64,000 nt of DNA from Acetobacteraceae bacterium (GTDB lineage Bacteria > Pseudomonadota > Alphaproteobacteria > Acetobacterales > Acetobacteraceae): NCBI GenBank assembly GCA_003151425.1, contig PLXO01000031.1, forward strand, positions 1-64,000, in the 5' to 3' direction. Both the position numbers and the translations under genes were made by a program. This document shows, piece after piece, positions 58,181-63,715 of the stretch (its first letter is position 1; each line of letters opens with the position of its first letter). Below the pieces are notes generated by a model. It did no database searches. It worked only from the letters and a program-made list of their open reading frames with translations, and had not been told where the DNA came from.

Positions 58181-59046
58181 TTACGAACCGTATTTTTGCG
58201 CTTTAAGGTTTTGCATGAGCGCGTTCATCGATGTTTGAGAAATCCCCAACGCGAGGCCGACGTCCCGCGTGCGTGTCGGCCCCTGGCTCTCCAGGTAGGA
58301 CAGCACGTCGCGAACCCGCGCCGACCGGAACGGAAGCGGCGGGGTATCAGCGTGGAACGCGGCCGCCGATCGTTGCCAATGCGTCGCTCCAGCCGCGGTT
58401 AGCCGATACAGATCGCCATAGGTTGCGTGCCCGGTCTTCTCGATAAGGCCCGCCTCGCGCAAAGATTCCGCGATCCTGGCAGTCTTGCCGGCATACATAT
58501 TTGTCACGACGGCGATCTTCGATAGCGTCGTCGCCTCGGTTCCCGGAACCGCGGATAGCGCGCGTTCCTGGTCTGGCCGCAGCAAGGTCGATGGGTCGTC
58601 CCTGAGCACTACTACAAACGTGGGATAATTCGGGTCAGCGGATCGTATGAGGCCGCGTGCGGTCAGGGCGACAACCAATTGATGGACACGTTGGCGCGTT
58701 ACGCCGAACAAGGTCACCAATTCTGCTCCACGTCGAGGCCGGTCGAGCGACGCCAGCAAGCGGGAAGCTGAGCCGCCAGGGACCGCGTCGGTCATTGCCT
58801 TTCGGCCGCGCGTCCGGACAGCGGCAGCGATCGATATGTCCACCCGCTTCCCCCGTGGGGTGAGATGCCAGGCGCGATGTCCGTTGCGCGCGGCAAGACC
58901 CGACGAGGCGAGTGTTGCAAGGTCCAGTTGGTCCGCCGGAGATTCAGGCCCGCGCGCAGGGCAATCAGCGTCTTTCGGTCGGTACCGGAGCGAAGAGCTT
59001 CGAGGCAGGCAGCTTCGGACGCACGCAACGCGATGGGCTTTTGCAT
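58181..59046 (-). pseudogene. Winged-helix (MarR-like) protein, apparently frameshifted near 58910-58920
   Basis: N-terminal ORF MQKPIALRASEAACLEALRSGTDRKTL...TNWTLQ; the other frame continues LASSGLAARNGHRAWHLTPRGKRVDISIAAAVR into ORF 58181..58843. Confidence 0.6.
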
Positions 59047-59258: not shown

Positions 59259-59438
59259 TCAGGAAGCACGCGACAGAAGGACCGGTGTCTCGGACGGCAC
59301 CGGACCACCCGGCCGTTGCGAACGCGGAAGCGCGCGCTTGGCCGAGCGGTCCAGCGGCGCCAGCAGGGCACCGAGCAATGTCGCCATGACCAGGGCGCCC
59401 AGTGGGGCACCAAGCGCACCCAGGATCATGGACGTCAT
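59259..59438 (-). CDS. Small membrane protein, copy 1 (59 aa)
   Basis: MTSMILGALGAPLGALVMATLLGALLAPLDRSAKRALPRS...; RBS context GGGAGCCCGACGATG; paralogue of 62715-62918. Confidence 0.75.
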   Translation of the reverse strand: MTSMILGALGAPLGALVMATLLGALLAPLDRSAKRALPRSQRPGGPVPSETPVLLSRAS

Positions 59439-59475
59439 CGTCGGGCTCCCGCGGGAGGGGGGCGTCGCCGACAGG

Positions 59476-59598
59476 TCAGCCGGCCGACGTGGACGGCGGG
59501 TACAGCGACACGGTCGAGGCGTGTGCCGCCGGGATCAATTCGGCGGTGCCGAGGGCGATGCCCAGAATGGCCGCCAGGGTGAGGAACATGGTTTTCAT
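59476..59598 (-). CDS. Secreted micropeptide precursor, copy 1 (40 aa)
   Basis: MKTMFLTLAAILGIALGTAELIPAAHASTVSLYPPSTSAG*; RBS GGAGAACGACGATG. Confidence 0.85.
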   Translation of the reverse strand: MKTMFLTLAAILGIALGTAELIPAAHASTVSLYPPSTSAG

Positions 59599-59790
59599 CG
59601 TCGTTCTCCAGGTTAGCCGTGGTCCGCAGAAGCACGGCAGGTTGGTCTGGCATTTCGTCTGCCGCTGAGTAGATCGTCGGAGCTCGCGGTTTATTCCGCC
59701 GCTTCAATTCGTGTCGGTGGATTCGCTCACTGTTACCGCTTCAATTCGGGTGGATGGGTTCGCCTTGCTGATGTGCGGATCGAGGGCGGG

Positions 59791-61359
59791 TCAGTGCGCG
59801 CCCCCTCCGCTCACAGCCCCCTTGCGCAACAGGGCGACCGACACCGCGGCCAGCAGCAGGACCGCGCCCAGCAGGGCGAAACTGTCGCTGTAGCCCATCA
59901 GCGTCGCCTGCGCGCGGATCGTGTTGCCGACGGCGATGATCGCGCTGTGCATCGCGGCGGCCGGATCCGCCGAGCCATGCGCCAGGAAATATTGCTGCAT
60001 CGCGGAGAGTTGCGCCCGGGTTGATGGTTCCAGCAGCGAGACGTGCTGATTGATGACGAACGAGTGGTACTGCTCGCGCTTGGTATAGAAGGTCTCCAGC
60101 ATCGCGGTGCCGATCGCGCCGCCGAGATTGCGCATCATGTTGAAGATGCCGGAGGCGCCACCTGCGTCCTGGCCACGGATGCCGAGCAGCGCGATCGAGG
60201 ACAGCGGCGCCATCACGACGGCCTGGCCGAGCGCGCGGGTGACGTCGGGCCAGAACAACTGCGGTGCGGCGTAGTTCGCGTCCATGTGCAGGTTCATGAA
60301 GCAGCTTGTCGCGAACACCACCAGGCCGGTGCCGACCAGCAGGCGGGGGTCGATGCGGCGCATCAGCAGCGGCAGCAGCGGGATCACCACAAGCTGCGGC
60401 AGGCCGGTCCAGGCCATGACACTGCCGATCTGCTGGGCGTTGAAGCCCTGCGCATTGGCGAGGTACTGCGGCAGCAGATAGGCCGAACCATACAGCGCGG
60501 AGCCGAGCAGGAAATTGGCCAGCGTACCGAAGCCGAAATTGCGCCGTGCCAACAGACGAAAATTCACCAGCGGCTCCGGCCGGGTGAATTCCACGATCAG
60601 GAAGCCGCCGAGCGCCAGCGCCGCGACCAGGGTCAGTTGCACGATGAAGGGAGAGCCGAACCAGTCGTAGACGTTGCCCTCGTCGAGCACCGTTTGCAGC
60701 GCGGCGAGCCCGACCGCCATCAGTGCGATACCGAGCCAGTCGCCGCGGCGCAGCAGGTCGAGCTGCATCTTGGACCTCGGCAACGCGTAGACCAGCATCG
60801 CCAGCATCGCCGCGCCGGGCACCAGGTTGAGGTAGAAGATCGAGGACCAGCCGTAGGTTTCCGTGAAGTAGCCGCCGATTGTCGGGCCGATCGCCGGAGC
60901 GAAGGTGGCGGTCAGCGCGAACGCCGCCAGACCGATCGCGCGCTTGGCCGGCGGCAGCATGGTCACCACGATGGTGAAGGCCAACGGGATCAGCACGCCG
61001 CCGGCGAAGCCCTGCAGGCCGCGCAGCACGATCATCTCGGGCAGGCTGCTGGCCTGGCCGCACAGCGCGGAGAACAACAGGAACAGCGCGACGTTGGCGA
61101 TCAGGTAGCGGCGCAGCGAGAACACCCGGCTGAGATAGTCGGACAGCGGAATGACGATGATCTCGCCGATCAGATAGGCGGTGGTGATCCAGGCGCCGTT
61201 GACGCCGCCGGTGCCGATGCCGCCCTCGATGTCCCGCAGCGAGGCGTTGGTGATCTGGATGTTCAGCACCGCCATGAAGGCGCCGAGCATCGCACCGGCG
61301 ACGACGATCCAGGTCTTGATCGAAACGGTCGGCTCGCTGCTCGTGGTGGCTTCAGACAT
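59791..61359 (-). CDS. DHA2 (EmrB-like) MFS transporter
   Basis: 522 aa; AFMAVLNIQITNASLRDIEGGIGTGGVNGAWITTAYLIGEIIVIPLSDYLSRVFSLRRYL. Confidence 0.93.
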   Translation of the reverse strand: MSEATTSSEPTVSIKTWIVVAGAMLGAFMAVLNIQITNASLRDIEGGIGTGGVNGAWITTAYLIGEIIVIPLSDYLSRVFSLRRYLIANVALFLLFSALCGQASSLPEMIVLRGLQGFAGGVLIPLAFTIVVTMLPPAKRAIGLAAFALTATFAPAIGPTIGGYFTETYGWSSIFYLNLVPGAAMLAMLVYALPRSKMQLDLLRRGDWLGIALMAVGLAALQTVLDEGNVYDWFGSPFIVQLTLVAALALGGFLIVEFTRPEPLVNFRLLARRNFGFGTLANFLLGSALYGSAYLLPQYLANAQGFNAQQIGSVMAWTGLPQLVVIPLLPLLMRRIDPRLLVGTGLVVFATSCFMNLHMDANYAAPQLFWPDVTRALGQAVVMAPLSSIALLGIRGQDAGGASGIFNMMRNLGGAIGTAMLETFYTKREQYHSFVINQHVSLLEPSTRAQLSAMQQYFLAHGSADPAAAMHSAIIAVGNTIRAQATLMGYSDSFALLGAVLLLAAVSVALLRKGAVSGGGAH

Positions 61360-61508
61360 GGTGGCGTCCCTTCTACTGCGCGTCGTTTGACGTGCGCCCG
61401 TTCCTGTTCATGGCGCATCTCACCGGTGCACGCTCCGGTGAGCGCACGCCGCGGCCGGTGCGCCGGTCAGAGCGCGCCGGTCGGCGCACGCCGGCCAGAG
61501 CGCGCCGA

Positions 61509-62627
61509 TCAGAGCGCGCCCGGGTCGGCGACCTTGGTGTCGATGGTCGGCTCGACCGACATGCCCGGGCGCAGCATGCCGGCGAGCGGATCGTGCGGAT
61601 CGATGACGATCTTCACCGGAATGCGCTGGACGATCTTGGTAAAGTTGCCGGTGGCGTTGTCGGGCGGCAGCAGGGTGAACTCCTGGCCGCTGGCCGGGGC
61701 AATACTGTCGACATGGCCGTGCACGACGGCGCCGGGGAACATATCGACATCGATATAGACCTGCTGGCCGGGCCGCACGTCGGTGAGCTGCGTCTCCTTG
61801 TAGTTCGCGGAGACGTAGACCGCCCGCAGCGGCACCACTGCCATGAGCTGGGTGCCGGCCTGGACGTACTGGCCGACGCGCAACGTGCGCGCGCCCACCG
61901 TGCCGTCGTTCGGCGCGGTGATGGTGGTGTAGCTCAGGTTCAGCTCGGCCTGGTGCCCCGCGGCCTGGCGCTGCGCCAGCGTGGCCTGCGCCTTGGCAAG
62001 CTGGGCGCGCAGCACGTCGGTCTGTTTCGATGCCACGCCGATGCCGGCCTGGTCGTGTGCCAGCGTTGCCTGCCGCTCCTGGATCTCGGCCTGGTATTGC
62101 TGTGCCTGCTGGATCGTTCCGGCGCCGGTGCGCGCCAGGTCGGTGTAGCGCAGGCGCTGCTGATCAGAGAATGTCACGGCGGCCTGATCGGCGGCGACCA
62201 GGGTGCGTGCCTGCGCGATGATCAGGGCCTGCTGCTCGATCTCCTGTTGCAGGTTGACGATGTCGGCCTGGGCCGCGGCGACGTCGGCGCGCGCCTGGTC
62301 GAGGGCGGTGCGGTAGTCGCGGTCGTCGATGCGGGCCAGCACGTCGCCGGCGTGCACCGGCTGATTGTCCTGCACCAGCACCTGGGCGAGGATGCCGGAG
62401 ACCTTGGGGCTGAGGATCACCGAGTCCGCGGCGATGTAGGCATCGTCGGTGGCGACCTGGAAGCGCCCGACGGTCCACCAGTCATGCGCATACACGCCGG
62501 CGGCGGCGACGATGCCAAGCGCGGCTGCGCCGAGCAGCAGGCGCTCGGCGGAAATTCCGGCACGCTGGCCGGCGATGGCGTGGGGCGGCAGGGTGATCTC
62601 GTCTGCGCAGGAATCGGATGCATCCAC
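61509..62627 (-). CDS. HlyD/EmrA-type membrane fusion protein
   Basis: VATDDAYIAADSVILSPKVSGILAQVLVQDNQPVHAGDVLARIDDRDY; PNDGTVGARTLRVGQYVQAG. Confidence 0.93.
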   Translation of the reverse strand: MDASDSCADEITLPPHAIAGQRAGISAERLLLGAAALGIVAAAGVYAHDWWTVGRFQVATDDAYIAADSVILSPKVSGILAQVLVQDNQPVHAGDVLARIDDRDYRTALDQARADVAAAQADIVNLQQEIEQQALIIAQARTLVAADQAAVTFSDQQRLRYTDLARTGAGTIQQAQQYQAEIQERQATLAHDQAGIGVASKQTDVLRAQLAKAQATLAQRQAAGHQAELNLSYTTITAPNDGTVGARTLRVGQYVQAGTQLMAVVPLRAVYVSANYKETQLTDVRPGQQVYIDVDMFPGAVVHGHVDSIAPASGQEFTLLPPDNATGNFTKIVQRIPVKIVIDPHDPLAGMLRPGMSVEPTIDTKVADPGAL

Positions 62628-62714
62628 GGGGCTGCCCTCCAGGTCATGTCGGGAAAATTGTGTTGGAACGAAACGAAGGTGTGTCCGCGCCGGTGCGCGG
62701 CGTCAGGCGGCGTT

Positions 62715-62918
62715 CTACTCGCCGCACGGCCTGCCGCTTGGTGCGGCGGGCAGCAGAGGGCGGCTCGGCCACTGCGACCCGCGCGGCGGCCACGGGGGCG
62801 ACCGCAGGGCTGCGCGGCAAGCCAAGAAATCCAGCGGCGCCAGCAGGGCACCGGCAACTGTCGCGATGATCAGAGCAGCCAGAGGAAGGTAAAGGACCAC
62901 CAGGACCACGTGCGTCAT
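62715..62918 (-). CDS. Small membrane protein, copy 2 (67 aa)
   Basis: MTHVVLVVLYLPLAALIIATVAGALLAPLDFLACRAALRS...; RBS context GGAGCCCGACAATG. Confidence 0.75.
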   Translation of the reverse strand: MTHVVLVVLYLPLAALIIATVAGALLAPLDFLACRAALRSPPWPPRGSQWPSRPLLPAAPSGRPCGE

Positions 62919-62961
62919 TGTCGGGCTCCTGCCGGAGTGCCGCGGTCAACGTCGGGACGGG

Positions 62962-63084
62962 TTAGCCGGCCGACTGGGACGGCGGGTACAGCGACACGGT
63001 CGAGGCGTGCGCCGCCGGGATCAGCGAAGCGGTGCCGAGGGCGATGCCGAGGACGGCCGCCAGAGTGAGGAACATGGTCTTCAT
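62962..63084 (-). CDS. Secreted micropeptide precursor, copy 2 (40 aa)
   Basis: MKTMFLTLAAVLGIALGTASLIPAAHASTVSLYPPSQSAG*; RBS AAGGAGAACGACGATG. Confidence 0.87.
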   Translation of the reverse strand: MKTMFLTLAAVLGIALGTASLIPAAHASTVSLYPPSQSAG

Positions 63085-63214
63085 CGTCGTTCTCCTTGTT
63101 CTCCGCGCGTTGCGCGGTGATTGGTTCGCCGCGCTTTGCGCGGTGTTTGATTCGCCGCACGTTTCGCGGTGATTGAACTTTCTGCTTAGCGCTTCGGTCG
63201 CGGTCGCCGACGGG

Positions 63215-63337
63215 TTAGCCGGCCGACTGGGACGGCGGGTACAGCGACACGGTCGAAGCGTGTGCCGCGGGGATCAGCGAAGCGGTGCCCAGGGCGATGC
63301 CGAGGACGGCCGCCAGGGTGAGGAACGTGGTCTTCAT
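63215..63337 (-). CDS. Secreted micropeptide precursor, copy 3 (40 aa)
   Basis: MKTTFLTLAAVLGIALGTASLIPAAHASTVSLYPPSQSAG*; RBS AAGGAGAACGACGATG. Confidence 0.87.
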   Translation of the reverse strand: MKTTFLTLAAVLGIALGTASLIPAAHASTVSLYPPSQSAG

Positions 63338-63604
63338 CGTCGTTCTCCTTGTTTCCGCGCGTCGCGCGGTGGTTGATCTCGTCGTTGGGACCGTCTCATC
63401 GGGTTCCACCGACGCGACGGGATATGGCCCATGCCGCTTGCGCCGATAATCTGGTAAACCAGCACATGATTTATGCGTAAAGCGGCGAAATAGCCGGCTT
63501 GATCCTACTGCCGATGGCAGGTGGCCAGCGCGAGGCGCGCCCGTCGCTGACCCGACCGGTCGTCCAACCATCCATCGCGGCAGAGTGACGCTACCGATGC
63601 CCGG

Positions 63605-63715
63605 GACAAGCCCGGGCATGACGATGTGGGCGGCCACGGTGATGGGGGCGGGCATGACAATGTGGGCGGCATGGTGATGCGGGCGGGCATGGTGATACGG
63701 GCGGGCATGACGATC
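63605..63715 (+). repeat. Degenerate short tandem repeat (gggcatgrtgatrcgggc-type)
   Basis: cgggcatgacgatgtgggcggccacggtgatgggggcgggcatgacaatgtgggcggcatggtgatgcgggcgggcatggtgatacgggcgggcatgacgat. Confidence 0.85.

Follow-up and report, generated by a model that had tools for sequence, protein, structure and literature searches.

The window analysed here is the whole 64,000-nucleotide stretch that forms positions 1-64000 of contig C79 in an Acetobacteraceae genome (G000) of 7.7 Mb with an estimated contamination of 6%. A re-check of its open reading frames confirmed that all seven ORFs of the cluster lie on the minus strand, with the positions and order given by the preliminary description: three nearly identical precursors of predicted exported micropeptides, two small single-transmembrane (TM) ORFs, and the adaptor and permease of an efflux pump (Table 1). 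Intergenic gaps among them reach up to 192 nt, and the seven genes need not form one transcript. Downstream of the cluster, the same strand encodes a 220-aa protein with two winged-helix stretches (58181-58843; MarR_2 and HTH_IclR matches), and a short tandem repeat with 18-bp and 35-bp periods lies upstream (63613-63709).

Table 1. Features of the cluster and further copies of the peptide family; positions are those of the window unless a contig is named.
Feature	Position	Strand	Description
Small single-TM ORF 1 (probable gene)	59259-59438	-	59 aa; 37 nt after peptide copy 3
Predicted exported micropeptide precursor, copy 3	59476-59598	-	40 aa, ...AELIPAAHASTVSLYPPSTSAG; predicted mature part STVSLYPPSTSAG
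DHA2 family MFS transporter, EmrB type	59791-61359	-	522 aa; TIGR00711 355 bits
HlyD/EmrA-like periplasmic adaptor	61509-62627	-	372 aa; GTG start; Pfam HlyD_D23, HlyD_3
Small single-TM ORF 2 (probable gene)	62715-62918	-	67 aa; 43 nt after peptide copy 2; directly before adaptor gene
Predicted exported micropeptide precursor, copy 2	62962-63084	-	40 aa, MKTMFL...SQSAG
Two tandem inverted repeats	63103-63145	-	CACCGCGCAACGCGCGG / CACCGCGCAAAGCGCGG; between copies 1 and 2
Predicted exported micropeptide precursor, copy 1	63215-63337	-	40 aa, MKTTFLTLAAVLGIALGTASLIPAAHASTVSLYPPSQSAG; predicted mature part STVSLYPPSQSAG
Third inverted repeat	63355-63371		Before copy 1
Upstream element common to copies 1 and 4	63400-63485	-	GCATAAATCNTGTGCTG...GATTATCGG, about 90 bp
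Peptide copy 4	C79:65402-65521		2 kb outside the window, beside divergent LysR gene; MKTMFLTLAAVLGLAIGTASLIPAAQASSVYLYPPSTSVG
Peptide copy 5	contig C278		Beside OmpR/histidine-kinase pair; MKTMFLTLAALLGLAIGVTSLSPAAHASKVYLYQPTDNGQG
Peptide copy 6	contig C211		In Crp/Fnr–peptide–small-TM set; MKKFVLATLAILGVVLGTISLSAPANASTVYLYPPSDHGGEASN

The permease exceeds the TIGR00711 cut-off of 230.2 with 355.1 bits over residues 20-507. The adaptor exceeds the cut-off of the RND_mfp model (131 bits; cut-off 94.9) and stays under that of TIGR00998 for EmrA/EmrK (246.2 bits; cut-off 390.8); since it passes only the broader model, it is called EmrA-like. The EmrB and HlyD-type assignments of the preliminary description are thus upheld, and its assignment to EmrA falls short of that model's cut-off.

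A genome-wide search brought the peptide family to six copies, four clustered around the pump on C79 and two on other contigs, which, given the 6% contamination, might in principle be foreign. By inspection, all copies begin with MK(T/K) followed by a hydrophobic run and keep A-x-A before S, with the n-, h- and c-regions and the small residues at -3 and -1 that mark a signal peptide. Such a layout points to export by Sec followed by signal-peptidase cleavage, which would leave a peptide of 13-17 residues, the predicted forms including STVSLYPPSQSAG, STVSLYPPSTSAG and SSVYLYPPSTSVG. The predicted mature parts follow the pattern S[TKS][VT][YFS]L[YF][PQ][PV]... and have a short conserved C-terminus, with tails that vary between paralogues; both the cleavage-like site and the shared C-terminal end pointed out earlier are therefore conserved features. 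Differences between the copies are, in terms of rates, mostly synonymous. Among the C79 copies the Nei-Gojobori dN/dS ratio, a measure that the preliminary description had suggested, lies at 0.08-0.27 (copies 1-2, 0.08; 1-3, 0.24; 1-4, 0.25; 2-3, 0.22; 2-4, 0.27; 3-4, 0.21), and it is 0.31-0.36 when they are compared with copy 5. For each window peptide, a codon-usage score trained on the window's pump genes is positive in the annotated frame alone, against the five other frames. Low dN/dS and a codon usage that picks out the annotated frame together indicate that the peptides are real genes. Pfam and NCBIfam gave no family at its cut-off for the peptides or the small TM ORFs, and no paper on the peptide family was found in the open-access literature; judged from these comparisons the family is undescribed, as had been proposed, and is evolutionarily constrained and lineage-restricted.

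The two small membrane ORFs of the window share the start context GGAGCCCGAC(G/A)ATG and align with a score of 99, compared with 32.7 ± 6.9 for shuffles, which agrees with the relationship previously suggested for them. Their annotated frames score best of six in codon usage. Compared over their first 40 codons, the pair has a dN/dS of 0.89, a value that does not demonstrate constraint, so that these ORFs are probable genes, less certain than the peptides.

A transcription regulator of Crp/Fnr, LysR or OmpR type is the recurring neighbour of the peptide copies. Copy 4 and a LysR-type gene (L007:5658-6599) are divergently oriented, as are copy 5 and the gene of an OmpR-type response regulator, behind which a histidine kinase is encoded. 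Copy 6, on C211, has a Crp/Fnr gene before it and a 40-aa TM ORF, MSTLFVVICALAIAIIGREVVDPTKARRAPRSRNADAEAP, after it. The region between copies 1 and 4 also encodes a Rieske ring-hydroxylating oxygenase alpha subunit (L007:3838-5145), and a tyrosine recombinase is found beyond the LysR gene (L007:7047-8048).

Copies 1 and 4 have an upstream element in common, whose pattern, containing GCATAAATCNTGTGCTG, occurs without mismatch at these two places only in the 7.7 Mb genome. The element is a possible LysR-type operator or promoter, and it could be a leftover of duplication; a promoter scan found nothing. The inverted repeats CACCGCGCRAMGCGCGG before copies 1 and 2 match their exact pattern at only three places genome-wide, and the folds before these copies are more stable than those of shuffled sequences (z -2.2 for copy 1 and -2.8 for copy 2). 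Such folds, together with Pro-Pro near the C-terminus, would suit leader or arrest peptides that act in cis on the translation of a following gene, and arrest peptides whose N-termini are exported have been described (PMC10987492, PMC7897499). Copies 4 and 5, however, have no evident gene behind them, a chain of 40 residues would lie mostly within the exit tunnel so that its signal sequence would not be sensed before release, and constraint covers the whole ORF, all of which makes this explanation very unlikely. Tandem copies of small hydrophobic toxins from a type I toxin-antitoxin system are about as improbable: the ORFs are short, hydrophobic, arranged in tandem and restricted in distribution, but they have a clear signal-peptide layout with S after A-x-A and a polar conserved tail, their placement is linked to regulators, and no antisense gene was identified. 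Both explanations fit worse than regulated envelope peptides.

Relatives in other genera were sought by searching 398 genomes of the family with a profile, which gave convincing peptides in a single one, G152 (Acetobacteraceae bacterium CRAIB_MAG65, JANWJK010000264.1); such searches have little power with 40-residue queries, and at most 18 candidates were scored per genome, so that absence elsewhere means a lack of detection. G152 has an orthologous Crp/Fnr gene (60% identity) with a peptide on either side, one of the two being followed by the TM ORF MITTVLIVVCALALAVIGRAALDPQR. An anchoring regulator of this kind lets the genes be traced where the peptide is too short for homology searches, and the Crp/Fnr protein, used as the anchor, led to G335, where the Crp/Fnr gene is followed by MKSFTFAVLTALTLLAGTPLLPAAANAQTFPSAPGGVQGGTHG and MTALVVLGALILAVVGRALLHPPPGRYGADRMPGG. 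Peptide relatives are thus present in two other genera, in each case beside a Crp/Fnr gene and with a small TM protein next. The peptides of G335 and C211 align with a score of 63, as against 23.6 ± 4.9 for shuffles; among C211, G152 and G335, the TM proteins align mutually at z 7.7-14.2 against shuffled controls. The window TM ORFs match these proteins weakly, with a best z of 4.0 (TM ORF 2 with G335).

A peptide gene followed on the same strand by a small TM ORF therefore occurs twice in the window and again in C211, G152 and G335, and its return at independent loci and in separate genera identifies the pair as a recurrent module. A TM partner was looked for and not found for copies 1, 4 and 5 and for one of the G152 copies, and in the flanks searched most other Crp/Fnr orthologues lack a peptide-TM pair. 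The neighbours of the Crp gene in G078 and G128 are an exported protein carrying internal repeats and a small TM ORF that resembles the others (z 6.5 for G152-G078 and 6.1 for G152-G128); both genomes possibly carry the pair as well, with unrelated-looking repeat peptides. The motif NEG(S/T)N, common to G152, C211 and the repeat peptides of G078 and G128, is suggestive only. The repeat units are (T)ADREGGPENNY in G078 (L066:6652-6900) and EGESNG(L/F)GTKNFA in G128 (L075:4817-5170), and units of GEANQIGARNV are seen in a protein of G010 (L120).

Beyond these genomes, plasmid searches with two family members gave no match, none of 40 pattern matches in viral contigs was confirmed, and a scan of genome contigs returned CRAIB_MAG65 and one actinobacterial match only. 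The latter, frame AHASTVYLFPVADCAVNYAHAHHDYAATDI, runs past the peptide length and resembles the start of a larger enzyme, and it was rejected as a chance match. Weak matches (E about 0.001-0.01) were likewise rejected, most being in long frames with mainly the hydrophobic part aligned.

A second gene group borders the Crp module in several genomes. In G000 the neighbours code for a cyclase-TPR protein, a PAP2 protein and the sole Peptidase_A4 (G1) of the genome; this trio adjoins the Crp-peptide-TM genes in G000, G335 and G128, and the cyclase alone does so in G078. The trio was rejected as a constant home of the peptides, as many genera have it without them and it is on another contig in G152, and it is read as a conserved cluster in its own right that at times borders the module, a neighbour and not a proven partner. 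This cluster, which combines a TPR-repeat cyclase with a PAP2-superfamily protein and an eqolisin-type peptidase (Peptidase_A4/G1), is itself conserved in many Acetobacteraceae genera (L009:7851-11846, L070:2200-5852, L075:6378-10023, L155, L156, L158, L160-L165 and L167-L169).

As to the pump, 93 of 348 genomes contain adaptor relatives at E <= 1e-80, and the 15 best of these loci in the family (54-68% identity, L089-L103) have no such peptides or similar TM ORFs within 1.5 kb; conversely, copies 5 and 6 and the peptides of G152 have no pump beside them. The pump is not a constant partner of the peptide–small-TM pair, and its link with the peptides appears particular to G000 or its genus, of which one genome was examined. 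The peptide-plus-membrane module that had been proposed as sitting beside an export pump is consequently retained as a pair, placed non-randomly with respect to its membrane partner, and a conserved placement relative to the pump is not.

These distributions bear on two further explanations. A secreted signal or antimicrobial, in which a 13-residue peptide would leave the cell via the pump or a TolC-type channel and the TM protein would serve as immunity or sensing partner, is in keeping with the short conserved mature region, the multiple paralogues with variable tails, the pump beside copies 1-3 and the histidine kinase beside copy 5. This proposal is nevertheless doubtful, given the copies that lack a pump and a window cluster with no maturation protease or immunity-like gene; moreover, Sec signals direct their cargo to the periplasm, whereas pumps of the EmrAB type draw their substrates from the cytoplasm or inner membrane. 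It is similarly unlikely that the TM ORFs, alone or together with the peptides, bind and tune the MFS pump in the manner of AcrZ and AcrB. TM ORF 2 does stand directly before the adaptor gene, and the case of AcrZ shows that a small TM protein can alter a multidrug pump (PMC7267776), but the closest EmrA relatives have no such ORFs beside them and the same kind of pair is found at Crp loci without a pump.

Since the regulators next to the copies are of three kinds and a pump accompanies just one set, the peptides are read here as regulated envelope peptides that were recruited into an efflux regulon. On this tentative account, which is the one preferred and is still put short of probable, Sec-exported peptides would be cut by signal peptidase after A-x-A to give short envelope peptides, made at some loci together with a small single-TM protein, and separate copies would answer to separate regulators (LysR, OmpR/histidine kinase and Crp/Fnr). 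Within the window, a duplicated module of peptide and TM genes would have joined an EmrAB-type efflux operon under LysR control, and through the upstream element held in common with the LysR-divergent copy, LysR inducers would increase the pump and the peptides in concert. These peptides would probably be small modulators of an envelope response, acting in the periplasm or at the membrane. A more ambitious version would make this an Acetobacteraceae envelope-signalling module, consisting of a Crp/Fnr-linked exported micropeptide and a dedicated small TM partner, in which the peptide diversifies quickly between genera, was copied into LysR- and OmpR-type regulons and, in the window, feeds back on or travels through the efflux pump; this is considered rather improbable. 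Exported peptides so short are seldom annotated in Gram-negative genomes, and a constrained peptide family combined with a small membrane protein and several regulators offers a concrete, testable case of envelope or efflux micropeptides.

Parts of the locus resemble several known systems. In AaeXAB, the small membrane protein AaeX (DUF1656) is encoded directly before an HlyD-type adaptor, as is small TM ORF 2 of the window, whereas the window's small TM ORFs match no Pfam family. SecM, VemP and their relatives, which are Sec-monitoring arrest peptides (PMC10987492, PMC7897499), share with the window peptides a short exported N-terminus and prolines near the end; the window peptides differ in being much shorter and in having no Sec/YidC gene behind them, several copies being without an evident downstream gene. 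AcrZ, the small TM modulator of AcrB (PMC7267776), is likewise small, spans the membrane once and is linked to an efflux pump, but the window ORFs have no family match, stand with another pump class, are encoded beside the pump and are paired with a predicted exported peptide. There is also a likeness to EmrAB/DHA2 tripartite efflux systems with a LysR regulator: an HlyD-type adaptor is followed by a DHA2 MFS permease above the EmrB-subfamily cut-off, and a LysR gene is present a few kb away, its divergent promoter region resembling the region before copy 1. Whereas the relatives are without them, the window carries peptide and small-TM genes both before and after its pump genes.
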